The notes under the pieces were generated by a model. That model made no database searches. It saw only the letters and a list, made by a program, of their open reading frames with translations, and had not been told where the DNA came from. The position numbers were made by a program, and so were the translations under genes. A stretch of 64,000 nt of DNA from Lachnospiraceae bacterium AC2031 (GTDB lineage: Bacteria; Bacillota; Clostridia; Lachnospirales; Lachnospiraceae), in the NCBI GenBank assembly GCA_000687975.1, contig JIAB01000001.1, positions 434,001-498,000 of the forward strand, in the 5' to 3' direction. This document shows, in pieces, positions 17,242 to 41,888 of the stretch. The number at the start of each line of letters is the position of its first letter. The stretch's first letter is position 1.

Positions 17242-17292
17242 GGCATAAAAAAATGGCGTCTCAGAGGGTTTAACCTCTAAGACGCCTTTGTC
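17242..17292 (-). promoter_or_regulatory. glnN leader hairpin (nitrogen leader motif, copy 1)
   Basis: Minus-strand RNA: GACAAA, then a 13-bp stem GGCGTCTTAGAGG / CCTCTGAGACGCC with loop TTAAAC (17255-17286), then A and seven T, then TATGCC. Unlike most other copies it has a long T-tract and is a textbook terminator. It begins within about 10 nt of the predicted transcription start and about 20 nt ahead of the RBS. It belongs to the six-copy family described in the findings. Confidence 0.8.
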
Positions 17293-17305
17293 TTATCTGT
17301 CAGTT

Positions 17306-17334
17306 ATATTACTCTTATATAATTTATTTGTCAA
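17306..17334 (-). promoter_or_regulatory. glnN promoter
   Basis: TTGACA (17329-17334) and TAATAT (17306-17311) with 17-base spacing, directly ahead of the leader hairpin. Confidence 0.75.
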
Positions 17335-17388
17335 TAACTTTTTTTAATATTTTTTAACTTATTATCTTTTAATTGATAACTTTGTTTT

Positions 17389-17964
17389 CTAATCAATTAT
17401 ATCCTGAGCCACCTGACGCTTTGTAAGTCCAGAATTCATAGCCTCTTTCAGGATATATTCATGTGCTTCCTTCTCAGACATACCTCTTTCAACAAGAACG
17501 ATCTTTGCACGGCTTACTATCTTCAGCTCTTCCATCTTCTCTTCAACAGAGCGAACCTGCTTACGCAGCTTCTTCACACGTCGATTAAGAGCAAGTAGCA
17601 ATCTAATGCTTCTATCAAGATCACTCTTCTTAACAGGTTTCGCTATGGTTATCACGCCGTAGTTTATCAAATGATTCATCACGTCACTGTGAATCTCATT
17701 TGGCACAGCTAAAACAACTCCAGCACTATGCTTCTCAACCACATCCATAACAAAGTCTGTTCCAAGACCATCACTTAGCGGAGCGTTTATCAGTATCATA
17801 TCGTATTCCCTGACAAGAAGTTCCCTTCTTGCAGCTGATGCGCTCTTTCTAACTTCTATAACGTTAAATGTTCTCTCCGGCAGTGATTTTTCAGCAAGTA
17901 TATTAAATTGATCAGAAGACGACACTATAAGAATAGAATGTCTATCAGCAGTTCTGCTATCCAT
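17389..17964 (-). CDS. ANTAR-domain antitermination regulator with degenerate receiver
   Basis: 191 residues. Residues 10-120 have a response-regulator fold, but the phospho-acceptor Asp is replaced by Asn60 (MILINAPLSDGLG), while the Lys-Pro at 109-110 is kept. Residues 125-148 look like a coiled coil, and 136-191 form an ANTAR RNA-binding domain (RAKIVLVERGMSEKEAHEYI...). ANTAR proteins bind nascent RNA hairpins and prevent termination. A comparable protein is encoded beside glnA in solventogenic Clostridium and has been proposed as an antiterminator. Here it is the last gene of pyrG-glnA-ANTAR and lies just ahead of the glnN promoter. With Asn60 it is unlikely to be switched by classic phosphorylation. 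Confidence 0.92.
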   Translation of the reverse strand: MDSRTADRHSILIVSSSDQFNILAEKSLPERTFNVIEVRKSASAARRELLVREYDMILINAPLSDGLGTDFVMDVVEKHSAGVVLAVPNEIHSDVMNHLINYGVITIAKPVKKSDLDRSIRLLLALNRRVKKLRKQVRSVEEKMEELKIVSRAKIVLVERGMSEKEAHEYILKEAMNSGLTKRQVAQDIID

Positions 17965-18018
17965 AAACGTCCCAGAACCTTTCTATCTAAAATAATATGC
18001 TTATAAACGAAAAATTAA

Positions 18019-19188
18019 TTATAAATACTTATCTATAATTGAAGCCGGAAGTATGGACTTTATAAAATCACTTGACTCAGCATACTTAATAGCTTCCTTT
18101 CTTGACTTAGGAAGAAGTACACTGTCATCATCCATAACCTTTGGAAGCTCCAGGTTATTCTCTATACCATATAGACCTGCATAGATAAGCAGAGCATATG
18201 CAAGATAAGGATTACTAAGCGCATCAGGAGAACGAAGTTCTACCCTTGGATGCTTCTCATTATCATTTATATACATAAGCTCAGAACCGCCGAGATTGGA
18301 CCAGTTCACCTTCGTTGGTGCAGTACCGGTTCCAAAACGGTTATATGAAGAATCTGTAGGATTAAGGAATATAGTTATATCCTTTATTTTTTCTAAGATA
18401 CCTGCTGCAGCTGAACGCACTACATCATTACCATCTTTATCCTTAGCAAAGATATTGATGTGATATCCATTTCCTGGCTTATCAGAAAGTGGCATTGGAG
18501 AAAAATCAGCATAGAGGCCATTTCTATCTGCAACAGTCTGAACTACCATCTTAAAGGTAGTCATCTGATCAGCAGCCTTAAGTGGCTTTCCATAATGGAA
18601 GTCAATCTCATTCTGTCCAGGACCTCTCTCATGATGAGATCTCTCTGGAGTGAGACCCATTTCTTCTATAGTAAGGCATATCTCACGACGAATATTCTCT
18701 CCTCTGTCAAGTGGAGCAATATCCATGTAGCCAGCTTCATCATATGGAATCTTTGTTGGACGTGCTTCGTCATCGGTTTTAAATAGATAGAATTCCATTT
18801 CCGAACCGAACTTAAAATCGATGCCTGCATCCTCTGCTGCCTTAACAGCATTCTTAAGAATGTTACGTGTATCAGCTTCAAATGGAGTTCCATCCACTTT
18901 ACATACATCGCAGAACATTCTAAGAACTCTTCCCGAATCAGGTCTCCAAGGAAGCACAGATAGTGTATCTGGATCCGGCTTCAGATAAAGGATACCTTCA
19001 TCGCAGCCCTCAAAGCCTCTTATAGACTTGGCATTGATCATAATACCATCTCTAAAAGCTTTGTGTATCTCGCTAGGCATTATAGATATATTCTTCTGAA
19101 CACCATAAGCATCACGGAAGGCCAGTCTAATAAACTTGGCATCTTCTTCCTCGATATATTCCATTATTTCTTTTTCTGAATATGTCAT
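18019..19188 (-). CDS. glnA: Short, divergent GSI-type glutamine synthetase
   Basis: 389 residues against about 440-470 for usual GlnA. Core residues are present: Glu130 and Glu132 in GSEMEFYLF, Glu187 and Glu194 in ERGPGQNEIDF, and the Arg-Glu-Arg run in PRVELRSPDALSNPYLA. The usual GSGMHxH is GNGYHINI (His243), and the region after SSYNRFG is unusual. The C-terminal domain is shortened and the adenylylation Tyr segment is absent. It may be an active GS, a glutamate-like amine ligase, or a regulatory paralog. It lies 41 bases downstream of pyrG and 54 upstream of the ANTAR gene, with no leader of its own. A family-level call is secure; glutamine synthesis is likely but unproven. Confidence 0.85.
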   Translation of the reverse strand: MTYSEKEIMEYIEEEDAKFIRLAFRDAYGVQKNISIMPSEIHKAFRDGIMINAKSIRGFEGCDEGILYLKPDPDTLSVLPWRPDSGRVLRMFCDVCKVDGTPFEADTRNILKNAVKAAEDAGIDFKFGSEMEFYLFKTDDEARPTKIPYDEAGYMDIAPLDRGENIRREICLTIEEMGLTPERSHHERGPGQNEIDFHYGKPLKAADQMTTFKMVVQTVADRNGLYADFSPMPLSDKPGNGYHINIFAKDKDGNDVVRSAAAGILEKIKDITIFLNPTDSSYNRFGTGTAPTKVNWSNLGGSELMYINDNEKHPRVELRSPDALSNPYLAYALLIYAGLYGIENNLELPKVMDDDSVLLPKSRKEAIKYAESSDFIKSILPASIIDKYL

Positions 19189-19229
19189 ACTATTCCCCTT
19201 TAAACAATTATAAAACCAAGATACACTAA

Positions 19230-20941
<1,712 letters not shown>

Positions 20942-20946
<5 letters not shown>

Positions 20947-20990
20947 AAAAAGAGGCACTTCGAGTGGTGAACCCGAAGCGCCATTGCTTC
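20942..20990 (-). promoter_or_regulatory. pyrG leader hairpin (nitrogen leader motif, copy 2)
   Basis: Minus-strand RNA: GAAGCAAT, then a 12-bp stem GGCGCTTCGGGT / ACTCGAAGTGCC with a 5-base loop (20954-20982), then TCTTTTTTATGC. The T-run makes it a plausible terminator. GCA before and TGC after can pair outside the stem. Confidence 0.8.
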
Positions 20991-21025
20991 ACAAAAATAA
21001 TCAATTAATTTTCTTAACAAATATT

Positions 21026-21053
21026 AGTATATAACTTTATTATCAAAAGTCAA
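21026..21053 (-). promoter_or_regulatory. pyrG promoter, conserved nitrogen promoter block
   Basis: TTGACT (21048-21053) and TATACT (21026-21031) with 16-base spacing. An ACTTT-7-AAAGT inverted repeat covers the end of the -35 and most of the spacer. The block is nearly identical in front of gltB and purF. Confidence 0.8.
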
Positions 21054-21069
21054 CTGATTTTTCTACTTT

Positions 21070-21810
21070 TTAATAACTTTCTTTTCTACTTTTCTCTCCT
21101 TTTTTCAAAGAGACAACAATTAGCATTATAACTCCAATGAAAAGATAAGCCATTCTTGTACATAAATACCCAGGAGTAATTGTAAATGGAGTCTCTCCGC
21201 CCTTAAGAGTTTCAAGAGCAGCCGATACAACCTCAAAGTAATTTGCACCATTAATGTCCACTCCATATTCCCTTAAGGCAAATGACATCACTATCACTAC
21301 GCCCATAAAGATATATATGAAAGCAGGACTAATCTTGCCCAGAAGATTACCGACACCTAACACAAATACGAGGCATGGCACAGTTATAAGAAACCAATCA
21401 AGGATATAAGTACTTAAATATACTTTTCCAAATATACTCCAAAGAAATATCACCCCTTCTGCAAAAACAAGCAGATTAAGTATAATAAAGAAGCTTCCTA
21501 TTATTATATTCTTTATGATCATTCTTTTTTGTACTGGAAATCCCGTGACATCTGCCAGTATGCTGACTCTTTTTTGTTTCTTAGAATACATAGTAGAAAG
21601 AACAAAAAGAGTAACAAGAACAGAAACAAGCGTTGTATCACCCAAATATTTTCCAAAACTCCATCCTGAAAAAGGAGCAGTACAAGAAACTCCGAGGATA
21701 ACCTGGGATGATAGAATAAAATAAGCATAAATCAAAGTTATAACCATCATAGCAAACACATATGGTTTTAATAGTATTATCTTAAAATCGTATCTAAATA
21801 TCTTACTCAA
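21070..21810 (-). CDS. ABC-2 type membrane subunit
   Basis: 246 residues with about six membrane helices (roughly 15-33, 55-73, 95-125, 132-155, 160-180, 215-235) and a basic tail. No enzyme motif is visible. It overlaps the end of the M1-peptidase membrane gene by 8 bases and belongs to the ATPase / large permease / small permease operon. It most likely completes the transmembrane part of that ABC system. Confidence 0.75.
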   Translation of the reverse strand: MSKIFRYDFKIILLKPYVFAMMVITLIYAYFILSSQVILGVSCTAPFSGWSFGKYLGDTTLVSVLVTLFVLSTMYSKKQKRVSILADVTGFPVQKRMIIKNIIIGSFFIILNLLVFAEGVIFLWSIFGKVYLSTYILDWFLITVPCLVFVLGVGNLLGKISPAFIYIFMGVVIVMSFALREYGVDINGANYFEVVSAALETLKGGETPFTITPGYLCTRMAYLFIGVIMLIVVSLKKGEKSRKESY

Positions 21811-24043
21811 CTGAGATATCCTCCTCTGTTAGTCCTGCAATATCAAGAAAATCCTGTAATGTGCAGCCAGTTCCATATTCAATATACTCACTCCTGGTTG
21901 AATATAATTCACTAAGAACCCTATCCATCTCTTCTTCTCCACCCAGCTTTTCTTCTGCTTTTAAAAGCATAAGTGGCATAAGACTATATTTATTCGTTGC
22001 TGACACACTATCTTCAATAGCTATTCTGTATGAAAGTGGAAGCTTATCAAGGTATTCAGGATGTCTATAATAAAAGTTATTATTTAAATCTTTTACGTCT
22101 TGCTCCCATTCATCAACATAGTACTTTTGGGCATATAACTCTCCATATTTATCCTTAATTATTCTATAAGTAGTAAATACGGTAAGTCCTTCACAAGACC
22201 ATAAGCCATCATCTTCAAATGGCATTCCTAAATCCCCCCAATATAAATGAACTATCTCATGGGTAAATGTTTCATTTACATTAGATCCTGCTCTGCTGTC
22301 AGAAAGAGTCTGTGGGGATAAGATATCTTCCTGCATAGCAACTGTTCCTTTTTCAGCATATCCGCCTCCATACTCTGCACTGAGCTGAAGAATACCTATA
22401 TCCTTTATATCCTCGCCATCTGAATTTTTATCAAGCTCTCCTATATGCTTATCACAATAATTAAACACATTCTGAATCGCGCCATCAAGATCATTATCCT
22501 TTACAGTATCCTTATATACTTTACTATATTTAAAATATACATCTTCTTTTGAATAAGATACCTTATCAGATTCATAGGCGCCGGATAGCAAACGACCCGA
22601 GCTACAAGCCAGCTTCCAACACGCAGTTCCATCGCCATTATCTTTTACAAGCTCCATAGCATCAGATTCAATAAACGGAGTATGATTAGATGGAACATTC
22701 ACATAAAGCTCCATATCGGGGCCGTCCGCAGAAAGCATATTTGCTCCCATATAATCCGAAGTAAGATATATGTAATTCTTACCTATAGCTGTCATGCCAT
22801 CATAACCAAGCAATACAAAATTCGAATGACTTGTACAAGGATAACCACCATATACCAGTTTTAATTTACCAGTCTTTCTTTCAGGATTCTTTAACACGTA
22901 TTTCTTAGTTCCAAAATAAGTATCAAGTACATTATCTTCATCATAATATGATGTAAACTCAAGAGGTTCGCCATCTATTGTCGCACTCTTAAGCTTAATT
23001 CCAGCACCAAGAGTAAATGAGATCTCATCACCTGATACAGTACTAAGATCTATTTCATCCGTACCATCCATTAACCCCAGCAGCGTATTAAAGGAAAGTT
23101 CTCTCTTATAGTCTGTGTACTCAGCCTCCGTCTCCGTAGCGCCATCATCCATCGTAAATGACATATCATCAAGAGATACTATAGGGCTATGATCTACAAA
23201 AGGCTGTTTGATAGCCATAATAACAGCGAATACAAGAAATATAACAGGTGCAACAAAGACCACTGGCTTCTTAACCCTAATGAGGAAAGAACGAATAATA
23301 TTATATTGATATTTTCTAATGAATACACACGAAAACTCCCATAAAACAATTGCCACAAGCATTAATAATATTCTTGTATAAAGTTGAATCCTTATTACTG
23401 CAGGCGAACCAAATGCATCTGAAATACAGATATTAACCGGTCTATTCCATGATATAAACGGATTTTCCACTAACGGACTCGCGAACTGTACAGCTGTAAG
23501 AATAAAGAAGATAATTAGCGAAACACTTATATTTTCTGATATATTGTATAATCCTTCCAACAAGAAAAATGTTATCGCCATACATGGAATATATAGAATA
23601 ACTGGATAGATAAAATATGACTCATAACTAAAAAGATAATCCATTTTTTTACTGCATATAGGCAGATAGATAATTAAACTTATCCCAAGAACTATCAAAA
23701 TGATAACTGAATACGCTAGAACTCGAGAGAGACTCGCCTTTTTTTCATCCACAAAGGCTCTCATCATATCGTTTACGCCATTCTTTTTTACCCTGTCTGA
23801 ATCAGTGAGGATTCCAATCCCCCATATAAGGGATCCAAAAAGACTTCCTATTATATATGGAAAAACTACATTATCCATAGTACTAAGTCTTTTATCTCCA
23901 CATATGTAAATTCCTGCATTTCTAACATACTCTATAAAGCTAAGACCAATAATAAGTATATTTAAGGCAAGCATTATATATGTTTTTCTACACATAAGCA
24001 GTCGTCTTAACTCGACTTTAGTAAGTTTCAAAGTTTGTCTCAT
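21803..24043 (-). CDS. ABC-2 permease fused to M1-family metallopeptidase domain
   Basis: 746 residues. The first 240 or so carry six hydrophobic segments like an ABC-2 permease, another helix follows near 255-275, and the rest is extracytoplasmic. His595-Glu596-x-x-His599 and Glu618 give HExxH-x18-E, the exact zinc spacing of M1 aminopeptidases (gluzincins). The strand-rich region 290-480 fits the M1 N-terminal domain. Membrane-M1 fusions next to an ABC ATPase are known in Firmicutes and Bacteroidetes but poorly understood. It may trim or sense peptides at the outer surface. It follows its ATPase gene by 10 bases and overlaps the small permease gene. Confidence 0.85.
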   Translation of the reverse strand: MRQTLKLTKVELRRLLMCRKTYIMLALNILIIGLSFIEYVRNAGIYICGDKRLSTMDNVVFPYIIGSLFGSLIWGIGILTDSDRVKKNGVNDMMRAFVDEKKASLSRVLAYSVIILIVLGISLIIYLPICSKKMDYLFSYESYFIYPVILYIPCMAITFFLLEGLYNISENISVSLIIFFILTAVQFASPLVENPFISWNRPVNICISDAFGSPAVIRIQLYTRILLMLVAIVLWEFSCVFIRKYQYNIIRSFLIRVKKPVVFVAPVIFLVFAVIMAIKQPFVDHSPIVSLDDMSFTMDDGATETEAEYTDYKRELSFNTLLGLMDGTDEIDLSTVSGDEISFTLGAGIKLKSATIDGEPLEFTSYYDEDNVLDTYFGTKKYVLKNPERKTGKLKLVYGGYPCTSHSNFVLLGYDGMTAIGKNYIYLTSDYMGANMLSADGPDMELYVNVPSNHTPFIESDAMELVKDNGDGTACWKLACSSGRLLSGAYESDKVSYSKEDVYFKYSKVYKDTVKDNDLDGAIQNVFNYCDKHIGELDKNSDGEDIKDIGILQLSAEYGGGYAEKGTVAMQEDILSPQTLSDSRAGSNVNETFTHEIVHLYWGDLGMPFEDDGLWSCEGLTVFTTYRIIKDKYGELYAQKYYVDEWEQDVKDLNNNFYYRHPEYLDKLPLSYRIAIEDSVSATNKYSLMPLMLLKAEEKLGGEEEMDRVLSELYSTRSEYIEYGTGCTLQDFLDIAGLTEEDISVE

Positions 24044-24053
24044 AACTCATCCT

Positions 24054-24914
24054 CTACTCAACTTTACTTTTCATAATACGATATAAATATGCGTCTTCAA
24101 GGGTTGGTTCACAATGTTCCACATAATCAGGAAGCTTCTTACCAACTATTCTGGTAAGAACTCCCGCCCTTGTATTAACCTTAGATACTATCTCACAGTC
24201 ATCAGGTATCACATCATCCATCTTACGAACATAAGAACCAACATGATCCATAGTATCTTCTATCAAATCTGCAGGTGCTCCATCATAGAGAATCTTTCCT
24301 CCATAGATAACAAGTACTCTGTTACAGACAGCTTGAACATCATCAACAATATGAGTAGAGAGAAAGACGATTCGATCACTAGACATTTCTGAAAAAGCAT
24401 TTCTGAACCTTACTCTTTCCTCTGGATCAAGCCCCACAGTTGGTTCATCAAGAATCATTATCTCCGGCTGCCCCATAATAGCCTGAGCAATACCGACACG
24501 CTGTTTCTGACCACCAGAAAGACTACCAATACGAACCTTTCTTTTATCCTTAAGGCCTGTATTCTCAAGCGCCCATTCTATCTCATCCTTACTCTTTATA
24601 TTCTTAAGAGCTGCCATATAATCCAGAAACTGCCAGACTGTTAGTTCTTCAAAAAGACCAAAGTTCTGCGGAAGATAACCAAGTCTTCTCTTAAAATCAT
24701 TTTCATTATCAAGTAGTTTCTTATCATCAACAAGGATATCTCCCTTAGCCTGCTTAAGACCAGCTGTCATCAGCTTCATAAGAGTTGACTTGCCGGCTCC
24801 ATTTGGTCCCAGGATTCCAACAAAATCAGGACTCTTCACTGAAAAGCTCACATCTGATAAAGCTTTCTTACCTGACGGATATATCATTGTCACATTTTTA
24901 ATATCTATTTCCAT
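24054..24914 (-). CDS. ABC transporter ATP-binding protein
   Basis: About 286 residues from the ATG at 24914, which has AAAGGAG at good spacing; the frame extends 31 codons upstream, but those overlap a terminator hairpin. Walker A GPNGAGKS, signature LSGGQKQRVGIAQA, Walker B IMILDEPTVGLDPEE, and switch His in FLSTHIV. It is of the CcmA/NatA subclass that pairs with ABC-2 permeases. First gene of a three-gene operon with the M1-permease and the small permease. Confidence 0.93.
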   Translation of the reverse strand: MEIDIKNVTMIYPSGKKALSDVSFSVKSPDFVGILGPNGAGKSTLMKLMTAGLKQAKGDILVDDKKLLDNENDFKRRLGYLPQNFGLFEELTVWQFLDYMAALKNIKSKDEIEWALENTGLKDKRKVRIGSLSGGQKQRVGIAQAIMGQPEIMILDEPTVGLDPEERVRFRNAFSEMSSDRIVFLSTHIVDDVQAVCNRVLVIYGGKILYDGAPADLIEDTMDHVGSYVRKMDDVIPDDCEIVSKVNTRAGVLTRIVGKKLPDYVEHCEPTLEDAYLYRIMKSKVE

Positions 24915-24950
24915 CCTGTATCTCCTTTTGATATTTAATAAGCAAAAAAA

Positions 24951-27199: not shown

Positions 27200-28966
27200 C
27201 TACTCTACATCCTGAAGAGCGTCATAGTCCTCTTCACCAGTTCTAATCTTAACAACTCTGCTTACTGGATATACGAAGATCTTACCATCACCGATCTTAC
27301 CAGTATAAAGTGTCTTCTTAGCTGTTTCGATTACACTGTCTACAGGAATCTTACTTACTACTACTTCAAGCTTGATCTTAGGAAGAAGTGTTACGTCCAT
27401 CTCAACTCCACGATACTTCTCACCAGTACCCTTCTGGATACCACAACCACTTACCTGAGTTACTGTAATACCTGTTACACCAAGAGCATTGAGAGCCTTC
27501 TTAATCTTGTCATATCTTGAAAGCTTTGTAATAATAACTACCTTATTAATACCAGTATCTGCTACAACACCAGCCTTAGTCATCTCTTCAGAAGCGTTTA
27601 CAACAGGAACAGAAGCGTTCTTCTTAGCTTCACTAGCCTCTTCATAATCATCACTTCCGAGACTTGTGTTTTCATTTTCAACCATCATTGCACTTGACAT
27701 ATCAACGATACTGAATCCTGAATATGCTGATGCAAGACCATGCTCTGTAGAATCAAGACCTTCGATTTCTTCCTCTTCTGAAACTCTAAGTCCAAAGATT
27801 GCTTTAATTATTGTAAATACTATAAGCATTGTTACAGCTGTCCAAGAAGCTACTGCTGCAAAACCAAGTAACTGAACTCCTAACTGATGGAAACCACCGC
27901 CGTAGAAAAGACCAACTACGCTATCATTTCCTGGTGCAGATGTTGTTGCGAAAAGACCAGTTGCGATTGTTCCCCAGATACCATTCATCATATGTACTGC
28001 TACAGCACCAACAGGATCATCGATGTGAAGCTTGAAGTCAAGAAGCCATACACCAAATACTACCAGAAGACCTGCAACTGCACCGATTATAATTGCGCCA
28101 AATGCATCTGTTACATCACAAGGAGCTGTGATAGCTACAAGACCTGCAAGTGAAGCATTGAGACACATTGAAACATCAGGCTTACCATACTTAACCCATG
28201 TAAAGATCATACATACTACTGTTGCGATTGAAGGAGCAATAGTTGTTGTTAAGAATACTGATGCAAGCTGTTCCTTTGAAGTACAAGCTGCACCGTTAAA
28301 TCCATACCATCCAAACCAGAGGATGAATACACCGAGTGCACCGATTACGATATTGTGACCTGGGAAAGCATTTACCTTTGTAACCTTTCCATTTTCATCT
28401 TTCTCAAACTTACCAATACGAGGTCCAACCATCTTTGCACCGATAAGTGCTGAGATACCACCAACCATATGGATTGCACAAGAACCTGCAAAATCATGGA
28501 ATCCCATCTGTGCGAGGAAACCACCGCCCCAGATCCAATGTGCTTCGATAGGATAAACAAGTGCTGAAATAATTCCTGAATATACACAGTAGCTAAGGAA
28601 CTTAGTTCTCTCTGCCATAGCACCTGATACAATAGTTGCTGTTGTTGCACAGAACACAAGGTTAAATACGAAATTTGACCAGTCAAAGTTCTGATATGTT
28701 GTGAAGATATCAAATCCAGGCTTTCCTATAAAACCAAGAACATCTTCACCAAGTAAGAAACTAAAACCGATTGCTATGAATACACAACATCCTATACAGA
28801 AATCCATAAGGTTTTTCATAAGAATGTTACCTGCATTCTTTGCTCTTGCGAAACCTGATTCAACCATTGCGAATCCAGCCTGCATCCAGAATACCAGCGC
28901 GGCACCAATAAGGAACCATACTGCAAATATTTCACCATTGATTGCACTTAAAATTTCTTCCGTCAT
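27200..28966 (-). CDS. amtB: Ammonium channel AmtB fused to a PII domain
   Basis: 588 residues from the ATG at 28966, which follows a perfect GGAGG; longer frames are not supported. Residues 1-400 or so are an Amt/Rh channel with 11 helices and the twin pore histidines (AGSCAIHMVGG and GAVAVHMMNG). After a linker, about residues 475-588 are a complete GlnB/PII domain (KVVIITKLSRYDKIKKAL, GIQKGTGEKYRG, TGKIGDGKIFVYPV). Stand-alone PII plugs AmtB when nitrogen is plentiful, so the fusion tethers the plug. The T-loop Tyr that is uridylylated in proteobacteria is Met here (YRGVEM), so control is probably by ADP/ATP and 2-oxoglutarate only. Two nitrogen leader motifs precede it. Confidence 0.95.
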   Translation of the reverse strand: MTEEILSAINGEIFAVWFLIGAALVFWMQAGFAMVESGFARAKNAGNILMKNLMDFCIGCCVFIAIGFSFLLGEDVLGFIGKPGFDIFTTYQNFDWSNFVFNLVFCATTATIVSGAMAERTKFLSYCVYSGIISALVYPIEAHWIWGGGFLAQMGFHDFAGSCAIHMVGGISALIGAKMVGPRIGKFEKDENGKVTKVNAFPGHNIVIGALGVFILWFGWYGFNGAACTSKEQLASVFLTTTIAPSIATVVCMIFTWVKYGKPDVSMCLNASLAGLVAITAPCDVTDAFGAIIIGAVAGLLVVFGVWLLDFKLHIDDPVGAVAVHMMNGIWGTIATGLFATTSAPGNDSVVGLFYGGGFHQLGVQLLGFAAVASWTAVTMLIVFTIIKAIFGLRVSEEEEIEGLDSTEHGLASAYSGFSIVDMSSAMMVENENTSLGSDDYEEASEAKKNASVPVVNASEEMTKAGVVADTGINKVVIITKLSRYDKIKKALNALGVTGITVTQVSGCGIQKGTGEKYRGVEMDVTLLPKIKLEVVVSKIPVDSVIETAKKTLYTGKIGDGKIFVYPVSRVVKIRTGEEDYDALQDVE

Positions 28967-28983
28967 TTGAACTTCCTCCTTCG

Positions 28984-29037
28984 ATACGAGAAAAGCGCCC
29001 CAGACCGAATAACATCCAGCCCAGAGCGCCATTGCTC
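28984..29037 (-). promoter_or_regulatory. amtB proximal leader hairpin (nitrogen leader motif, copy 4)
   Basis: Minus-strand RNA: GAGCAAT, then a roughly 17-bp stem starting GGCGCTCTGGGC with many G-T pairs (28994-29030), then TTTCTCG. It ends about 15 bases ahead of the GGAGG. It is the most wobble-rich and weakest-flanked of the six copies. Confidence 0.7.
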
Positions 29038-29087
29038 ATAAAGTATTATTTTGTCGCGCGCTAATCTTCTGCCAACAGGCAGATCCC

Positions 29088-29135
29088 GGCAAACGAAAAG
29101 GCGCCTCAGAGATCATTCTCTAAGACGCCGTTGCC
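29088..29135 (-). promoter_or_regulatory. amtB distal leader hairpin (nitrogen leader motif, copy 3)
   Basis: Minus-strand RNA: AGGCAAC, then a 13-bp stem GGCGTCTTAGAGA / TCTCTGAGGCGCC with loop ATGA (29100-29129), then TTTTCGTTTGCC. GGCA before and TGCC after can pair. A small extra hairpin (TCTGCC-TGTT-GGCAGA, 29068-29083) separates it from the proximal copy. Confidence 0.8.
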
Positions 29136-29149
29136 TTTTATGCTTCTGT

Positions 29150-33123: not shown

Positions 33124-33130
33124 ATCTTAC

Positions 33131-34096: not shown

Positions 34097-35677
34097 TTAG
34101 AGATTAGTGAATCCCATAAGATCAAAGTCCACTTCTCTTGCTGCATTTCTTCCTTCTGAGATTGCCCAAACAACAAGGGACTGGCCACGATGCATATCGC
34201 CCGCGGTATAGATCTTACATCCCTTATTTTTGCTATCAGATGCGAAAGCGGCATATGAGCCGGGAGCCGTCTTGACATTTGTTCTTCCATCAAGTTCTAC
34301 TCCAAATCCATCTGTAACATAGCTCTCACTACCAAGGAAACCAGCCGCTATAAGAACCAGCTCGGCAGGTACATTTTTCTCACTGCCTTCTACTGGTACC
34401 ATCATCATACGACCAGTCTTCTCGTCCTTCTTTGACTCAAGAGAAACGAGAACAACCTCCTTCAGATGACCTTTTTCTGATTTAAATTCCTTAACAGTTG
34501 TCTGATAAATTCTAGGATCGGATCCAAATAAATATATAGCTTCTTCCTGACCATAATCAGTCTTAAGAACACGAGGCCACTCTGGCCAAGGATTTGATGC
34601 AAGTCTTTCTTCTGGTGGGCATGGCATCATCTCAAGCTGGGTTACAGACTTGGCACCTAGTCTGATACATGTACCAACACAGTCATTTCCTGTATCACCA
34701 CCACCTATTACGATTACATTTTTCCCTGAAACTTCGTTATAAGGGAATATATCCTTCTTCTTTTTCTTTAATACATCAAAATCACTATCAAGAAGTGACT
34801 TTGTTACTTTACCTAAAAAGTCTACAGCAAAATATATGCCCTTTGTATCTCTACCTGGAGCATTAATATCACGTGGATTAGATGCACCACAAGCGAGAAC
34901 TACAGCATCATATTCCTCTCTAAGTTTATCTGCAGATATGTACTTTACATTATCAGTAAACTTTGCCTTAGGACTATCTCCATCCACTTTCTTGGATCCA
35001 CATACATTGACGCTGGTCTGGAACTGAATTCCAGCTGCTTCCATCAGCTTTACTCTTCTATCAATAACTGACTTGTCCAGCTTCATATTAGGGATACCAT
35101 AACGAAGGAGACCACCGATACGGTCACTTCTCTCAAAAACAGTAACAGAATGTCCACGACTATTAAGAAGCTGCGCCGCAGCAAGTCCTGAAGGACCACT
35201 ACCTACGACTGCAACCTTCTTACCAGTTCTTACCTTAGGTGTAATTTCAGAAACAAGTCCCTGATCATATGCAAATTCTATGATAGCTTTTTCATTTTCC
35301 TTTGTTGATACAGCCTCCTGATGATATCCACAGGTACAAGCCTTCTCACAAAGAGCAGGACATACTCTTGAGGTAAACTCTGGGAAGCTGTGCGTAATAG
35401 AAAGGCGTCTATATGCAAGTTCAAGATTACCTCCCTCAACAAGTTCATTTAATTCAGGAACAAGATTGTGAAGTGGGCAACCAGCAGCCATTCCTGCGAT
35501 CATCGTACCTGCCTGGCAAAATGGAACACCACAGTTCATACATCTTGCTGCCTGTTTCTCCTGTTCTTCTAATGTAAGTCTCCCATGGAATTCATCAAAG
35601 TTGCAGATTCTTTCCTTCTCAGGAACTGTTGGAGCATCTACTCTCTCGTATTCCAAAAATCCTTTTATATTACCCAT
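34097..35677 (-). CDS. gltD: Glutamate synthase small subunit
   Basis: 526 residues, slightly long for GltD (about 470-500). N-terminal Fe-S cysteines ([30 protein letters not shown]), the FAD motif [28 protein letters not shown], and an NADPH-binding GGGDTGNDC. It feeds electrons from NADPH to GltB, which turns 2-oxoglutarate and glutamine into two glutamates. It starts 27 bases after gltB and shares its leader-controlled transcript. Confidence 0.96.
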
Positions 35678-35704
35678 AAACGTTTCCTTTTTTTCTATAT
35701 ATTT

Positions 35705-38700
35705 TTAACCAACGAGTTCTGTGAAGGCTTCTATCTGTGCCTGTTCATGATCCATACCCTGCTCTTCGAACTGAGCTGTGAGATGGAGCATTTCTTTATA
35801 ATCGTTAGGAATAATCTTCTTGAAGTAACCAACATACTCATCAAAGTTCTCAAGTATACGCTTACCCTTCTCAGAGCCAGTATACTTAACATGCTTTTCA
35901 ATCATATCAAGAAGCTTTTCTTTATCATTCTTAGCCTCGATCTTCTCCATAAGGACAAGCTGCTTATTGAGGTTCTTATAGAGTGTATTCTCCTCATCCA
36001 GAACATAAGCTACTCCGCCGCTCATACCAGCTGCAAAGTTCTTACCTGTTGGTCCGAGGATTACTGCACATCCACCAGTCATATATTCGCATCCATGCTC
36101 TCCAACTCCTTCAACTACTGCTGAAGCACCAGAGTTTCTTACACAGAATCTTTCTCCTGCAACACCTGCGATATATGCCTCACCTGAGGTTGCACCATAA
36201 AGTGCTACGTTACCGATGATTATATTCTCTTCTGCATCGTAACCTGCATTTTCAGGAGCATGAACAATAAGCTTTCCACCTGAAAGACCCTTACCAAAGT
36301 AGTCATTACTATCACCAACAAGATCAAGTGTAAGACCTGAAGGGATAAATGCTCCAAAGCTCTGTCCACCTGCACCGGTACAATTAATAACTAATGAATC
36401 ATTATCAAGTCCTTCTGATGCAGCTCTGGTAATCTCTGCACCAAGAAGAGTACCAAATGCACGGTCTGTATTTGATAATGCTATATCAACACTCTTCTTC
36501 ATTCCCTTGCTTGCAGAAGCCTTTATATCCTTCTCAAGCTTGCTGATAAGGACTTTCTCATCCTTTGTTTCACCAAGTTTGAAGTCATAAGCTTTTTCAG
36601 GATGGAATGTCTGAAGATTTCTATCGATACCAGACATATCTGCCAGGATTCTGCTAAGATCCATCTCTGCCTCAGCACCCTTAAGACCATCCTTAACCTT
36701 AAGAAGATCCGTTCTACCTACTAACTCAGATATAGTTCTAACTCCAAGCTTTGCCATATATTCACGAAGCTCACGAGCAATAAAATACATGAAGTTTTCA
36801 ACGTACTCTGGCTTACCCTTGAAACGTTTTCTGAGCTCAGGATTCTGAGTAGCTACGCCCATAGGACAAGTATCATTCTGACAAACTCTCATCATTACAC
36901 AGCCCATAGTTACAAGTGGAGCTGTTGCGAATCCATATTCTTCTGCTCCCAGGATTGCTGCTATAGCAACATCACGTCCGCTCATAAGCTTACCATCTGT
37001 TTCAACAACTACCTGATCACGAAGTCCGTTAAGAAGCAGTGTCTGATGTGTCTCAGCAAGTCCCATTTCCCAAGGAAGACCAGCATTATGGATAGAGCTC
37101 AGTGGAGCTGCTCCAGTACCACCGTCATATCCTGATACAAGAATAACCTGTGCACCTGCTTTAGCAACACCTGCTGCTACAGTACCAACACCTGCTTCAG
37201 ATACAAGTTTTACAGAAATTCTTGCCTTTTTATTTGAACACTTAAGGTCATATATTAACTGAGCCAGATCCTCGATAGAGTAAATGTCATGATGAGGTGG
37301 TGGTGATATAAGACTTACACCTGGTGTTGAGTGACGTGTCTTTGCTACCCATGGATAAACCTTCTTTCCAGGAAGATGTCCACCTTCACCTGGCTTAGCA
37401 CCCTGAGCCATCTTAATCTGAATCTCTCTAGCACTTACAAGATACTTACTTGTAACACCGAATCTACCACTGGCAACCTGCTTTATAGCACTACTTCTAT
37501 CATTGTCTGTTCCAGCTGAAGCTATTCTCTCATCGCTCTCTCCACCTTCACCACTGTTTGACTTACCATGAATATGATTCATAGCTATTGCCAGTGTCTG
37601 GTGAGCTTCCTCTGAGATTGATCCATAAGACATAGCACCTGTCTTGAATCTCTGCATAATTGATTCTTCAGACTCAACCTCATCAAGAGGAATTCCCTCA
37701 GCTGGGAAGTTGAACTCCATAAGACTTCTTAGATAACCTGTCTTCTCGGCATCTACCATTTGGGTATACTCTTTAAACTTCTCATAGTTACCCTCTCTGG
37801 TTGAAAGCTGAAGCATATGGATCGTCTGTGGATTATATCTATGTGTCTCACCCTGTGCTCTGAACTTGTGTCTTCCCACAGCTGTGAGTTCAAGGTCAAC
37901 TGGAAGACCCAGTGGATCAAAGGCCTTACTATGCTGTTCGTCAACCTTTCTCTCTATATCTTCAAGTGTTATACCGCCAACACGGCTAACAGTTCCATCA
38001 AAGTATTCATCGATAACCTTAGAAGAGATACCGATTGCCTCAAACATCTTACTACCCTGATAAGACTTAATTGATGAGATTCCCATCTTTGAAGCGATCT
38101 TTACGATTCCGCTGATTATTGCTTCATCGTAATCATCAACTGCTGCATAGTAATCCTTATCTAAGAGACCATCATCTATAAGTTCCTTTATAGTTGAATG
38201 TGCAAGATATGGATTAACTGCTGATGCACCATAACCAAGCAGAGTTGCGAAATGATGAACCTCGCGTGGCTCACCTGATTCGAGAACAAGTGACATGGCG
38301 GTACATTTTCTTGTTTCTACAAGATGCTTATGAACTGCAGCTACTGCAAGAAGTGATGGAATAGCTACATGGTTCTCATCTACTCCTCTATCTGAAAGGA
38401 TAAGTATACTTGCACCCTGACGATAAGCCTTATCTACCTCAACAAAGAGATGTGAAAGCACTCTCTTCATTGGCGTACTCTTGTAATAAAGAATAGATAC
38501 TGTTGCAGCCTTGATTCCATCTTTGTCAAGATGCTTTATCTTCAGCATATCCAGATCTGTAAGGATTGGATTATGAATCTTAAGTACATGACAGTTTTCA
38601 GCTTTCTCTTCCAGAAGATTTCCGTTCTTTCCAACATATACGCTACGTGATGTAACTATCTTCTCACGTTCAGCATCAATAGGTGGATTTGTTACCTGAG

Positions 38701-40258
38701 CAAAAAGCTGTTTGAAATAATAGAACAGTGGCTGGTAAGTATCAGATAGAGCAGCGATAGGTGTATCAACACCCATTGAACCAATCTGCTCTTTTGCATT
38801 CAGTGCCATGTTCAGGATACCTTCATGATAATTCTCATAGGTATAGCCAAATGCCTTCTGAAGCTTCTGTCTCTCTTCGCCATCTATTTCAGGAACTTTC
38901 TCATTTGGAATCTTAATGTTCTTAAGCTCGAGCAGACTCATATCAAGCCACTCGCCAAATGGATTTCTATGTGCGTATCTCTCTTTAATCTCCTGATCAG
39001 TAAATACCTTTCCTTCTTTCGTATCTACAAGGAGCATCTTTCCCGGATAAAGTCTGTCCTTCTTGACGATGTGACTTTCATCAAGAGGAAGCACACCAAC
39101 CTCAGATGCAAGGATCAGACGACGATCGTCCATGATCACATAACGTGAAGGTCTAAGACCATTTCTATCAAGGATAGCACCCATTACATCACCATCAGAG
39201 AAGACGATAGATGCAGGTCCATCCCAAGGCTCCATCATTGTTGCATAGTACTGATAGAAGTCTCTCTCTTCCTGAGTAAGTGTCTCATTATGAGCCCATG
39301 GCTCAGGAATAAGAACGCTGGCAGCAAGCGGAAGATCCATACCACTCATCATCAGGAACTCAAGAGTATTATCAAGCATAGCTGAATCTGAACCGCTTGA
39401 AGAAATAACTGGAAGAACCTTTGTCATATCTTCTTCGCTAAATGTATCTGTATGCATTGTCTCTTCACGAGCAAGCATCTTATCTGCATTTCCCTTTATT
39501 GTATTGATCTCACCATTGTGAACCATCAGACGGTTAGGATGAGCTCTGTTCCAGCTTGGATTTGTATTAGTTGAGAATCTTGAATGTACCATAGCGATAG
39601 CTGACTCATAATCAGGATCATTAAGGTCAAGGAAGAATGTTCTGAGCTGTCCTACAAGGAACATACCCTTATAAACGATAGTTCTGCAGGAAAGTGATGG
39701 TACATATGTATTAACGCTACACTGCTCAAACTCACGTCTTATGATATAGAGCATGCGATCAAACTCAAGATCTGTAAGACCTGCTGGTCTCTCAATAAAT
39801 ACCTGTTCAATATCAGGCATGCATTCTCTTGCCTTAGTTCCAAGAACATTAGGACTGATTGAAACCTTTCTCCAACCAAGAAGCTTTGCATTGCTCTTAT
39901 TGACGATTGTTTCAAACATATTCTTGGACTGTCTTCTCTCAAGATCATCCTGTGGGAAGAAGAACATACCTACGCCGTAGCTTCTTTCATCTCCAAGAGA
40001 TACTCCAACTTCAGACATAACCTTCTTAAAGAATTTATGAGGAATCTGTGTAAGGATACCAACACCGTCACCGGTCTTTCCTTCAGCGTCCTTTCCAGCT
40101 CTATGTTCGAGATTTTCTACGATGCTTAGAGCGTCTGCAACCAAGGCATGACATTTCTTTCCATCCATCTGAACAATCGCACCGATACCACAGTTATCAT
40201 GCTCAAATGAAGCATCATATAATCCCTTTCTTCTTAATTCCTCAAGTGCTGTATTCAT
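35705..40258 (-). CDS. gltB: Glutamate synthase large subunit
   Basis: 1517 residues from the ATG at 40258, which has AGGAGG eight bases upstream (a GTG one codon earlier is less likely). A short propeptide precedes the nucleophile Cys23 (DNCGIG) of the class II amidotransferase domain (about 23-430). The central domain runs to about 800 and the FMN/synthase domain to about 1220, with the 3Fe-4S cysteines (CQNDTCPMG). The GXGXG domain is C-terminal. Together with GltD it recycles glutamine to glutamate, the second half of the GS-GOGAT cycle with glnN/glnA in this window. Confidence 0.97.
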   Translation of the reverse strand: MNTALEELRRKGLYDASFEHDNCGIGAIVQMDGKKCHALVADALSIVENLEHRAGKDAEGKTGDGVGILTQIPHKFFKKVMSEVGVSLGDERSYGVGMFFFPQDDLERRQSKNMFETIVNKSNAKLLGWRKVSISPNVLGTKARECMPDIEQVFIERPAGLTDLEFDRMLYIIRREFEQCSVNTYVPSLSCRTIVYKGMFLVGQLRTFFLDLNDPDYESAIAMVHSRFSTNTNPSWNRAHPNRLMVHNGEINTIKGNADKMLAREETMHTDTFSEEDMTKVLPVISSSGSDSAMLDNTLEFLMMSGMDLPLAASVLIPEPWAHNETLTQEERDFYQYYATMMEPWDGPASIVFSDGDVMGAILDRNGLRPSRYVIMDDRRLILASEVGVLPLDESHIVKKDRLYPGKMLLVDTKEGKVFTDQEIKERYAHRNPFGEWLDMSLLELKNIKIPNEKVPEIDGEERQKLQKAFGYTYENYHEGILNMALNAKEQIGSMGVDTPIAALSDTYQPLFYYFKQLFAQVTNPPIDAEREKIVTSRSVYVGKNGNLLEEKAENCHVLKIHNPILTDLDMLKIKHLDKDGIKAATVSILYYKSTPMKRVLSHLFVEVDKAYRQGASILILSDRGVDENHVAIPSLLAVAAVHKHLVETRKCTAMSLVLESGEPREVHHFATLLGYGASAVNPYLAHSTIKELIDDGLLDKDYYAAVDDYDEAIISGIVKIASKMGISSIKSYQGSKMFEAIGISSKVIDEYFDGTVSRVGGITLEDIERKVDEQHSKAFDPLGLPVDLELTAVGRHKFRAQGETHRYNPQTIHMLQLSTREGNYEKFKEYTQMVDAEKTGYLRSLMEFNFPAEGIPLDEVESEESIMQRFKTGAMSYGSISEEAHQTLAIAMNHIHGKSNSGEGGESDERIASAGTDNDRSSAIKQVASGRFGVTSKYLVSAREIQIKMAQGAKPGEGGHLPGKKVYPWVAKTRHSTPGVSLISPPPHHDIYSIEDLAQLIYDLKCSNKKARISVKLVSEAGVGTVAAGVAKAGAQVILVSGYDGGTGAAPLSSIHNAGLPWEMGLAETHQTLLLNGLRDQVVVETDGKLMSGRDVAIAAILGAEEYGFATAPLVTMGCVMMRVCQNDTCPMGVATQNPELRKRFKGKPEYVENFMYFIARELREYMAKLGVRTISELVGRTDLLKVKDGLKGAEAEMDLSRILADMSGIDRNLQTFHPEKAYDFKLGETKDEKVLISKLEKDIKASASKGMKKSVDIALSNTDRAFGTLLGAEITRAASEGLDNDSLVINCTGAGGQSFGAFIPSGLTLDLVGDSNDYFGKGLSGGKLIVHAPENAGYDAEENIIIGNVALYGATSGEAYIAGVAGERFCVRNSGASAVVEGVGEHGCEYMTGGCAVILGPTGKNFAAGMSGGVAYVLDEENTLYKNLNKQLVLMEKIEAKNDKEKLLDMIEKHVKYTGSEKGKRILENFDEYVGYFKKIIPNDYKEMLHLTAQFEEQGMDHEQAQIEAFTELVG

Positions 40259-40276
40259 CACTCTATCCTCCTAAAA

Positions 40277-40322
40277 TGCATAAAAGGCGCTCTGAACCTA
40301 AGTCCAAAGCGCCTTTGCTTTT
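40277..40322 (-). promoter_or_regulatory. gltB leader hairpin (nitrogen leader motif, copy 5)
   Basis: Minus-strand RNA: AAAAGCAAA, then a 12-bp stem GGCGCTTTGGAC / GTTCAGAGCGCC with loop TTAG (40286-40313), then TTTTATGC. It ends about 14 bases ahead of AGGAGG. Its T-tract is short (four), so a role in translation or in RNA stability is as likely as termination. Confidence 0.8.
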
Positions 40323-40352
40323 ATCTTACATATTATTTTCAAAACTATTAAC

Positions 40353-40380
40353 AGTATATTACTTTATTTTCAAAAGTCAA
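40353..40380 (-). promoter_or_regulatory. gltB promoter, conserved nitrogen promoter block
   Basis: TTGACT (40375-40380) and TATACT (40353-40358), 16-base spacing, with the ACTTT-7-AAAGT inverted repeat covering the -35 end and spacer. Confidence 0.8.
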
Positions 40381-40437
40381 GTATAAATTTTACTTTAATT
40401 ATTTAATGTGTATTTTAGAAATTCTTTTTCTATAAAA

Positions 40438-41826
40438 TCACACCGGATAATCATTTGTAAAGCAGGCTGTACAAAGTGGTAAATCACCAACCATTGTCGT
40501 GAAATCCTCCACGCTGAGGTATTCCAACGAGTCTGCTCCAATATTCACTCTTACATCCTCAGTTGAATGCTGAGATGCTATAAGCTGCTTCGATGTAGGT
40601 ACATCTGTACCATAGTAGCAAGGATAAAGGAATGGTGGAGAACTTATCCTTACATGTACTGACTTTGCTCCAGCATTGCGTAACATTTCAATCAGCTGTC
40701 TCATGGTTGTACCACGAACTATAGAATCATCTATAATTACTATATTCTTATCCTGCACCACATTATTTAGAACACTGAGCTTCATATGTACTGCAGTCTG
40801 TCTCTCTTTATCTGTCGGTTTAATGAAACTTCTACCGATATAACTATTCTTATGAAATGCAATCGCAAAAGGGATACCAGATTCAAGTGCATAACCTTCA
40901 GCCGCAGCAATTCCTGAATCAGGAACACCAACAACTATATCCGCATCAACCTTCGCCTTACGAGCAAGCGCTCTACCCGCATTTACTCTTGCATCATGAA
41001 TCTCTATTCCATCCATAACAGAATCATTACGCGCAAAGTAAATATATTCAAATATACAGTGAGCTCTCTTCTCCTGGCACATTGATCTATCAGACGCTAT
41101 ACCTTCTTTTGTGATAGCTATCATCTCTCCAGGTTCAACGTCTCTGATAATCTCTCCACCTACAGCAGTAATAGCCGCACTTTCAGATGCAAATATATAT
41201 GAATCACTCTTTTTACCTAAAATAAGTGGTTTAATTCCAAATGGATCTCTAATTCCTATAAGCTTTCGAGGACTCATTACAACCAGTGCGTAACCACCTC
41301 TAAGCTTTGCAGCAGCATTTTTCACTGCGCCTTCAATAGTTCCCGTCTTTACTCTCTCGCCAATAACTTCATAGGCAATAACCTCTGTATCTGAGGTTGT
41401 ATAATGAGCAAGACCTCTATTCATCTGCTCTTCTTTAAGCTCAGGTGCATTAACAATATTTCCGTTATGAACCAGCGCAAGACTACCCTTGATATAATTC
41501 ATTGCAATTGGCTGTGCATTCACAGCTTTGCTTCCACCAGTAGTTGAATATCGTACGTGACCAACACCGATATTTCCTGATAAATGATTTAAGTCTTCCT
41601 CATTAAAGACTTCATTTACAAGTCCCATATCCTTCTTCAGCCTTAGGTTTCCCATCTCACCACTGGTATCTGAGACTGCAATTCCTGCTGATTCCTGGCC
41701 ACGATGCTGCAACGAAATAAGTCCATAATATATGTCATGTGCAACTTCTTCTTCATTAAGAGAATAGATGCCAAAAACGCCACACTCTTCGTGCAGCTTA
41801 TCCTGAGACAATACAGTATTATCCAT
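40438..41826 (-). CDS. purF: Amidophosphoribosyltransferase
   Basis: About 462 residues from the ATG at 41826 (AGGGG upstream). A short propeptide ends before the nucleophile Cys in EECGVFGIYS. The Ntn glutaminase half is followed by a PRTase half with the PRPP motif VIIDDSIVRGTT. It commits PRPP to purine synthesis using glutamine. It stands alone here, not in a pur operon, and its promoter and leader match those of nitrogen genes, so it seems to be controlled as a glutamine consumer. Confidence 0.96.
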   Translation of the reverse strand: MDNTVLSQDKLHEECGVFGIYSLNEEEVAHDIYYGLISLQHRGQESAGIAVSDTSGEMGNLRLKKDMGLVNEVFNEEDLNHLSGNIGVGHVRYSTTGGSKAVNAQPIAMNYIKGSLALVHNGNIVNAPELKEEQMNRGLAHYTTSDTEVIAYEVIGERVKTGTIEGAVKNAAAKLRGGYALVVMSPRKLIGIRDPFGIKPLILGKKSDSYIFASESAAITAVGGEIIRDVEPGEMIAITKEGIASDRSMCQEKRAHCIFEYIYFARNDSVMDGIEIHDARVNAGRALARKAKVDADIVVGVPDSGIAAAEGYALESGIPFAIAFHKNSYIGRSFIKPTDKERQTAVHMKLSVLNNVVQDKNIVIIDDSIVRGTTMRQLIEMLRNAGAKSVHVRISSPPFLYPCYYGTDVPTSKQLIASQHSTEDVRVNIGADSLEYLSVEDFTTMVGDLPLCTACFTNDYPV

Positions 41827-41840
41827 TATTAAACCCCTTT

Positions 41841-41888
41841 TAAGCATAAGGGCGCCTTAGGAAAAATATCCTAAAGCGCCATTGCTTA
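41841..41888 (-). promoter_or_regulatory. purF leader hairpin (nitrogen leader motif, copy 6)
   Basis: Minus-strand RNA: TAAGCAAT, then a 12-bp stem GGCGCTTTAGGA / TCCTAAGGCGCC with loop TATTTT (41851-41880), then CTTATGCTTA. TAAGCA and TGCTTA can pair for six bases outside the main stem. There is no T-tract, so this copy cannot be a standard terminator. Confidence 0.82.

Follow-up and report, generated by a model that had tools for sequence, protein, structure and literature searches.

Single-hexaloop leader RNAs ahead of glutamine and ammonium genes suggest a NitR-type ANTAR antitermination regulon in Lachnospiraceae

Introduction

ANTAR proteins bind RNA hairpins with a loop of six bases, in which position 1 is A and position 4 is G, and the hairpin termed P2 overlaps an intrinsic terminator (Ramesh 2012, PMC3369931; Walshe 2022, PMC8934654). 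As far as the accessible text of these and the following sources goes, published ANTAR targets carry two hexaloop hairpins, P1 and P2 (PMC3369931), and a single hexaloop suffices as the minimal site for binding by EutV, yet P1 is required for antitermination in vivo (PMC8934654). NitR of Clostridium saccharobutylicum is described in a review as an ANTAR protein that induces the glutamine synthetase/glutamate synthase (GS/GOGAT) genes by antitermination on nitrogen limitation (PMC6316151), and AmiR of the Pseudomonas AmiR-AmiC pair as a pseudo-receiver ANTAR protein under the control of a partner (PMC3369936). In the present study, we analyzed a stretch of 64,000 nucleotides (hereafter, the window) from Lachnospiraceae bacterium AC2031 (assembly GCA_000687975.1, contig JIAB01000001.1, positions 434,001 to 498,000), in which six copies of one leader RNA element precede glnN, pyrG, amtB (two copies), gltB and purF. 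We consider it highly probable that these copies belong to a NitR-type antitermination regulon, run by the one ANTAR protein encoded at 17389-17964 through many single-hexaloop leaders.

The window leaders resemble the ANTAR-target RNAs, such as the eut leaders of EutV, in an A1/G4 hexaloop that overlaps and excludes a terminator, in the nitrogen genes behind it and in the presence of an ANTAR protein, and the gltB leaders of relatives (six of 11 in named genomes, among the matches listed, and the loci L029 and L144) also carry both hairpins. They differ in the number of hairpins, which is one in the window copies as in the majority of all copies observed, in the position of the glnN and amtB hairpins, which lie mostly beside the predicted start site, and in the AANGGC loop, the GGC of which doubles as the terminator base. 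Since a search for P1 in the window copies found none, we do not class them with the canonical dual-hairpin targets of ANTAR proteins. Compared by its description in the review, NitR is likewise an ANTAR protein that acts on GS/GOGAT genes by antitermination, whereas the regulon considered here also holds amtB, pyrG, purF, carA and glmS. The window protein shares a pseudo-receiver and an ANTAR domain with AmiR (AmiR-AmiC, 1qo0), and hence presumably responds to a partner protein and not to phosphorylation; EutV, in contrast, has a phosphorylatable receiver Asp. We read as new here the single-hexaloop leaders of the window within the known ANTAR antitermination of the NitR type. Among titles and the beginnings of abstracts, we did not find this Lachnospiraceae leader described, and an earlier description in the supplement of Ramesh 2012 or in Stutz 2007 is possible.

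Results

Two mutually exclusive hairpins in six elements

The six elements (17242-17295, 20941-20991, 28983-29039, 29087-29138, 40273-40322 and 41840-41889) are all encoded on the minus strand, each in the same orientation as the gene behind it, ahead of glutamine and ammonium genes as an earlier reading of the DNA letters (the sequence-only reading) had placed them. When a covariance model built from the six copies, R1, was run against the 3.19 Mb genome, these six ranked highest, with scores of 52.5 to 40.2 bits and E-values of 1.2e-10 to 3.8e-7, and its next match, reverse matches aside, was located ahead of carA at 32.0 bits. Since the six copies themselves built R1, its independent test was provided by the genomes of the genus, 59 of 61 of which (own genome included) had matches at E <= 0.1. 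Removing 11 rows that overlapped a better row at the same locus reduced the 117 genus rows to 106, and removing five duplicates left 101 distinct copies, sense only, while a second covariation count used 111 distinct rows, antisense included; a second covariance model, R2, has two antisense rows among its 78. The loci used from beyond the genus are the matches with the best scores and do not form a random sample, and the filters used for searches of more than 40 genomes lose weak matches.

GCAANGGCG does not belong to an outer GCA/TGC stem; it was found to be the top of a second hairpin. The 4 to 6 bases on the 5' side of AANGGC pair with the bases on the 3' side of this loop, giving the general form NNAGC[AANGGC]GCTNN, and the hexaloop has A1 and G4, matching the published ANTAR-target loop. 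The loop GGC and the 3' arm of the small hairpin also form the 5' arm of a long hairpin, and the two hairpins are, therefore, mutually exclusive. The small hairpin thus overlaps and excludes an intrinsic terminator, as in ANTAR targets, and both helices covary.

Across the 101 genus copies, the five loop-proximal pairs of the small hairpin form in 101, 101, 101, 100 and 91 copies, and the sixth in 28. With the sixth included, 86.1% of positions are paired, versus 76.7% in column shuffles (maximum 79.0%) and 34-61% in slid versions, and the score for changes on both sides reached 5364 versus a shuffle maximum of 2317. In the 111-row count, the five pairs were 93.3% paired, a value reached by none of 500 shuffles (slid versions, 24.7-56.1%), and two of the five measures, namely, pairs with both-side changes and further pair types, stayed within the shuffles. 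The arms change in concert (ACAGC/GCTGT, ATAGC/GCTAT, GAAAC/GTTTC) although the model gives these pairs no reward. The loop was AANGGC in all 101 genus copies (AAAGGC 48, AATGGC 29, AAGGGC 21, AACGGC 3) and at all 82 loci read beyond the genus, L155 included; both R1 and R2 favor this loop sequence, and only the arms are independent evidence.

The long hairpin, which the sequence-only reading had reported in every copy, is borne out: all 72 cells of the stem are paired across the six copies, with both-side changes in six of 12 pairs, and 98.6% are paired in the 101 genus copies versus a shuffle maximum of 85.9%. A run of at least four T follows within 14 nucleotides in 93 of the 101. Predicted energies ranged from -2.0 to -5.8 kcal/mol for the small and from -19.8 to -25.3 kcal/mol for the long hairpin, and since the terminator is far more stable, it would win by default, and a stabilizing factor would be needed for the small hairpin to form. 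The same reading had paired the outer GCA and TGC, which by our inspection can pair in pyrG, amtB copy 1, gltB and purF, four of the six copies. The complement of the triplet occurs no more than 16 nucleotides past the terminator in 35 of 101 genus copies (shuffled mean 21.0, maximum 31), and the outer stem, slightly enriched, was nevertheless rejected as a defining structure. The sequence-only reading had also recognized no known family in the RNA, which holds for Rfam, with no match at the gathering score in the whole window and four chance-level matches only at E <= 5, a scan that covered 40200-42000, but less so for the structure itself, which lies close to the ANTAR-target RNAs in the accessible text of PMC3369931.

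Preference for glutamine and ammonium genes

Gene preference was counted in 88 matches from 13 genus genomes (12 relatives and the own genome outside the window), with the downstream gene assigned, here and in the named genomes, by a simple rule, the longest open reading frame within 600 nucleotides. A hexaloop hairpin of at least 4 bp was present in 78, which precede amtB (16), gltB (12), glnN (10), pyrG (7), purF (7), carA (7), a circularly permuted ATP-grasp protein (4), PPDK_N (3), a RelA/SpoT-like protein (3), glmS (2), and, once each, gltD, glnA, an AMP-binding protein, a polyamine-type ATP-binding cassette protein and another gene, with two at a contig end. Sixty-one of the 78 are, thus, ahead of glnN, glnA, amtB, gltB, gltD, pyrG, purF or carA, with the two glmS copies in addition. 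The earlier proposal of a cis-acting RNA of one nitrogen or glutamine regulon is upheld. Among the 10 matches with no hexaloop, nine had no gene assignment and one preceded a flavin oxidoreductase. The regulon appears to comprise the makers of glutamine, ammonium uptake, GOGAT and glutamine-dependent amidotransferases.

A scan of named genomes with the exact pattern returned at least 120 stretches, and 34 of the 80 record titles listed name Lachnospiraceae. Among the matches listed, 81 were exact, of which 47 lie ahead of glnN (16), gltB (11), amtB (10), purF (6) or pyrG (4). The other 34, not assigned, include records of Gammaproteobacteria, Herbaspirillum, Shewanella, Stenotrophomonas, Lysinibacillus, Niallia and Brevibacillus, which we take for probable chance terminators.

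Co-occurrence with the ANTAR gene

The motif (59 of 61 genomes) and the ANTAR gene (58 of 61, one each) are both near-universal in the genus, which is, therefore, too uniform for a co-occurrence test. In 150 genomes of the family, R1 at E <= 0.001 matched 101 of 131 ANTAR-positive versus three of 19 ANTAR-negative genomes (Fisher 3e-7), and R2 matched 82 of 131 versus one of 19 (Fisher 1e-6); in 196 genomes of the order, R2 matched 59 of 132 versus three of 64 (Fisher 1e-9). These p values take no account of shared ancestry, and a few genomes are in both sets. At the level of the class, 53 of 291 genomes had R2 matches at E <= 1e-4. Among the ANTAR-negative genomes with a model match, six of seven (all but G124) were inspected for the hairpin, and four showed nothing hexaloop-like.

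An ANTAR protein with a pseudo-receiver

The window gene at 17389-17964 (minus strand) is the only ANTAR gene and the sole PF03861 match (49.9 bits) in the genome; it is the last of the run pyrG-glnA-ANTAR and lies 93 nucleotides ahead of the glnN element. A profile of 32 relatives of its product, a NitR-like regulator with a pseudo-receiver and an ANTAR domain, matched Rv1626 (2.5e-19), EutV (1.8e-13), AmiR (7.5e-12) and NasR (9.5e-8) in the PDB. The fold of receiver, coiled coil and C-terminal ANTAR domain is indicated by the profile matches to 1s8n, 6wsh and 1qo0 and by a template modeling (TM) score of 0.73 with 6ww6_B. The predicted structure has a mean predicted local distance difference test value of 90.4, and RNA-bound EutV, which is second by E-value after Rv1626, is its best full-length fit (TM 0.73) among the ANTAR chains listed. 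When the contact residues of EutV were placed on the window protein via an alignment, Glu160, Lys149 and the essential Met172 corresponded to E163, K153 and M175, which are invariant in 32 of 32 sequences.

The phosphorylated Asp of the receiver is absent from all 40 rows (39 distinct, the window protein being present twice, and mostly genus members), in which the position is occupied by N (31), S (4), C (2), Y (2) or H (1). Four candidate columns that we take to be the acidic pocket are mostly S, S, S and E (35, 20, 35 and 36 of 40 rows). Because the Asp is lost, AmiR is controlled by a partner and NitR induces under nitrogen limitation, we infer that the signal would reach the pseudo-receiver via a protein partner rather than phosphorylation, and that low glutamine or nitrogen would free the ANTAR protein. 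Glutamine synthetase or P-II is the likeliest partner. The P-II domain fused to the ammonium transporter of the window (27200-28966) is a possible partner.

One hairpin or two

In the window, the predicted -10 box lies 11 (glnN, from the inner 5-nucleotide arm) and 12 nucleotides (amtB copy 1) from the hairpin arm, no A1/G4 hexaloop of at least 3 bp was found in the 26, 31 and 35 nucleotides from the -10 box to the hairpin arm of purF, gltB and pyrG, respectively, and the hexaloop upstream of amtB copy 2 is amtB copy 1. In the 12 relatives, seven of 10 glnN and eight of eight amtB copies with a recognizable promoter had this spacing of 11-12 nucleotides, and no promoter was found for eight further amtB copies. 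A promoter was found for 78 of the 101 genus copies, with the hairpin within 15 nucleotides of the -10 box in 34 of these. Beyond the genus, 70 of the 81 leaders with the best scores had a recognizable promoter, and in 62 of these 70 the hairpin was within this distance; transcripts of such leaders should, thus, start within a few bases of the hairpin.

The gltB leaders are different and serve as a positive control for the P1 scan. Among the matches listed in named genomes, six of 11 carry an upstream hexaloop of 5-7 bp with R1/G4 (shuffle mean 0.5, maximum 3), such as TGATGTC[AAAGGA]GACATCG and ACATC[AACGGC]GATGT, located 8-33 nucleotides ahead of P2, or four of 11 when A1/G4 alone is counted (mean 0.5, maximum 2); the gltB loci L029 and L144 have a P1 of 4 bp. 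An upstream A1/G4 hexaloop of at least 5 bp was found in none of 16 glnN, six purF and four pyrG leaders and in two of 10 amtB leaders among the matches listed, and by our reading, both amtB cases are probably tandem elements. The canonical P1 in the gltB leaders of relatives supports an ANTAR reading and points to a mixed regulon of one- and two-hairpin leaders, in which the single-hairpin form appears firmest for glnN and amtB.

Scans of the genus at 3-5 bp and 35-80 nucleotides upstream gave counts mostly within the shuffles, and exceeded the shuffle maximum at 4 bp/60 nucleotides (12 of 101, maximum 10) and 3 bp/80 nucleotides (33, maximum 32). Among the 12 former cases, two are an upstream copy of the element, five begin before the end of the -10 box, three have no recognizable promoter and two are transcribed; beyond the genus, the same setting gave 10 of 81 (shuffle maximum 10), three of which are transcribed. 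A1/G4 loops between the -10 box and the hairpin exceeded the shuffles: in the genus, 12 of 79 leaders had one of 3 bp (shuffles, mean 4.6, maximum 9), and beyond it, three of 70 had one of 4 bp (mean 0.4, maximum 2). One of the 12 is the true gltB P1 of L029, and six are situated at a conserved ANNGTT-like stretch, four nucleotides past the -10 box, with the 5' arm before the predicted start. Genus gltB, pyrG and purF leaders have 21-58 nucleotides between the -10 box and the hairpin, and the 30-nucleotide upstream regions of 26 leaders of this long class fold near their shuffles (-1.5 vs -1.2 kcal/mol). These leaders (in the window, 40325-40355, 20995-21035 and 41892-41915) share an A/T-rich stretch past the -10 box, in which ANNGTT is followed by a sequence like TTARAAAATWAA, and which is a candidate for a start-site element or for a degenerate P1.

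Leaders and genes of the window

All of the following features lie on the minus strand. The glnN leader has the antiterminator TAAGAC[AAAGGC]GTCTTA (17278-17295, 6 bp) and an overlapping terminator, GGCGTC...GACGCC with a T tract (17247-17286, -25.3 kcal/mol), ahead of the gene for a type III glutamine synthetase (15111-17213; GSIII_N, Gln-synt_C). In the pyrG-glnA-ANTAR run, glnA, a glutamine synthetase gene, occupies 18019-19188 and pyrG, which encodes the glutamine amidotransferase CTP synthase, 19230-20831; the pyrG leader has TGAAGC[AATGGC]GCTTCG at 20974-20991 and a terminator followed by a T tract at 20954-20982 (-19.8 kcal/mol). Two further strong hairpins (GTTGCC/GGCAAC and AGCATATCGCAAGCGATATGCT) are present between this terminator and the start codon (20850-20940).

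Both amtB copies fall within the leader as two tandem elements once the start of amtB is moved to 28966 (GGAGGAAGTTCAAATG), and the re-assigned gene (27200-28966) encodes an ammonium transporter of 588 amino acids with a fused P-II domain (Amt + P-II). Copy 1 consists of AAGGC[AACGGC]GTCTT (29122-29137) and its terminator (29100-29129, -22.4 kcal/mol), and copy 2 of GAGC[AATGGC]GCTC (29024-29037) and a terminator of 17 pairs, several of them G-U (28994-29030, -23.9 kcal/mol). Tandem elements in one leader were also observed in the class-level relatives L206, L224 and L220, and the first copy there sometimes has GGTG instead of GGCG. The gltB leader has AAAGC[AAAGGC]GCTTT (40306-40321) and a terminator (40286-40313, -21.3 kcal/mol) ahead of the genes for the large (gltB, 35705-40261) and small (gltD, 34097-35677) subunits of glutamate synthase, and the purF leader has AAGC[AATGGC]GCTT (41874-41887) and a terminator (41851-41880, -21.8 kcal/mol) ahead of the gene for the glutamine amidotransferase amidophosphoribosyltransferase (40438-41847).

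Discussion

In the proposed mechanism, the leader would by default fold into the strong intrinsic terminator just past the promoter, at which RNA polymerase would stop. A shortage of nitrogen or glutamine would switch the ANTAR protein on, its pseudo-receiver being signaled by a protein partner, likeliest glutamine synthetase or P-II. The active protein would then catch the AANGGC hairpin of 4-6 bp, which joins bases immediately ahead of the terminator to the first part of its 5' arm, and as long as this hairpin is held, the terminator would be blocked and the gene transcribed. The sequence-only reading had left open whether a protein or a small molecule such as glutamine reads the RNA; our results favor a protein, probably the ANTAR protein of the cluster, and a small-molecule aptamer is not supported because the conserved part is one hexaloop hairpin and a terminator.

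Several findings weigh against this interpretation. The six window leaders have no P1, which EutV requires in vivo, each of the six antiterminators is weak, with only 4 bp in purF and amtB copy 2, the stem has only 3 bp at eight of 81 loci beyond the genus, and the T runs of purF and gltB comprise only two and four bases. On the protein side, Arg142 of EutV corresponds to L146; Tyr164, which stacks on the loop G4 according to the accessible text of PMC8934654, corresponds to H167, with His in 40 of 40 rows; and Arg175 and Arg177, which belong to a triple mutant of EutV that does not bind (same source), correspond to G178 and T180. The distribution is also imperfect: the ANTAR-negative genome G108 has a version with a seven-base loop, G396 (81% complete) a true hexaloop copy, G042 and G058 (72-73% complete) the motif with no ANTAR match, and G055 an ANTAR gene with no R1 match. 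R1 misses 30 of 131 ANTAR-positive genomes of the family, and R2 misses 73 of 132 in the order; ANTAR-bearing genomes with no R1 match may have leaders of a different form or leaders that the model does not reach.

Among other explanations, the one that survives best, improbable as we judge it, is that the window leaders are also canonical dual-hairpin targets, the P1 stem or loop of which is too degenerate for our scans. The true P1 hairpins in the gltB leaders of relatives, the 21-58 nucleotides available in the long leaders, the 3-bp and 4-bp A1/G4 loops in excess of shuffles and the conserved ANNGTT-like hexamer past the -10 box are in keeping with it; however, no window leader scores, glnN and amtB copy 1 offer only 11-12 nucleotides, and half of the 12 genus cases would have their 5' arm before the predicted start, while another is the P1 of the L029 gltB leader. 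Moreover, the upstream regions of the long class fold about as their shuffles do, and glnN, purF and pyrG gave no case at 5 bp among the named matches listed.

Glutamine riboswitches of cyanobacteria, namely, the glnA and downstream-peptide RNAs, also place glutamine genes under RNA control, and a leader that binds glutamine, ammonium or 2-oxoglutarate and thereby picks the terminator or the antiterminator might explain why most of the targets serve the synthesis, transport or use of glutamine and why the RNA has two alternative folds. We regard such a riboswitch as very unlikely, since its conserved part would be only a 5-bp hexaloop hairpin and a terminator, the hairpin lies at most 15 nucleotides from the -10 box in 62 of the 70 leaders from beyond the genus for which a promoter was recognized, too close to leave space for an aptamer, the window has no Rfam match at the gathering score, glutamine riboswitches included, and the loop, which fits a consensus for protein binding, follows the distribution of the ANTAR gene. 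Plain promoter-proximal terminators with no regulator, conserved by recent duplication, would account for a long hairpin that is a good terminator and for the ten lower-scoring genus-set matches with no hexaloop hairpin, which look like ordinary terminators; this seems very unlikely, because such terminators have no need for 5' bases that pair with their own 5' arm and the exact hexaloop occurred in only one of six ANTAR-negative genomes with model matches. An inverted repeat that acts as a DNA operator for a repressor would suit its position directly behind the -10 box in short leaders, but is very unlikely given stem lengths and loops that vary, G-U pairs that are frequent in the sense strand and a second, overlapping hairpin that is meaningful only in RNA.

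Returning to ANTAR antitermination, the apparent presence of one- and two-hairpin leaders in one regulon means that a single protein would suffice for a direct test of whether a recruitment hairpin is needed, and search models that require two hairpins would miss one-hairpin leaders. If true, the present interpretation would also identify the regulator of nitrogen metabolism, together with its regulon, in a major group of bacteria of the gut and rumen. A broader proposal, to which we give an even chance, is that Clostridia, above all Lachnospiraceae, control the supply and use of glutamine (its synthesis, the uptake of ammonium, GOGAT, and the glutamine-using enzymes at the entry to the purine, pyrimidine and amino-sugar pathways) via a minimal ANTAR switch, in which glnN and amtB would use a single hexaloop beside the start site with no recruitment hairpin, gltB would have kept or regained the two-hairpin form, and the reader would be a phosphorylation-dead pseudo-receiver protein signaled by a partner, for instance glutamine synthetase with bound glutamine, or P-II.

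Two further elements of the own genome were observed outside the window. A hexaloop element of the GTTTCATC type (L016:1501-1548; C1:2721885-2721932) precedes the gene for a RelA/SpoT-region protein of 327 amino acids, with a similar arrangement in three relatives, which hints at a connection to alarmone metabolism. Another (L132:1547-1602; C1:2944246) is followed by a ribosome-binding site and a frame of 20 codons only, and the gene behind it may be decayed or very short.

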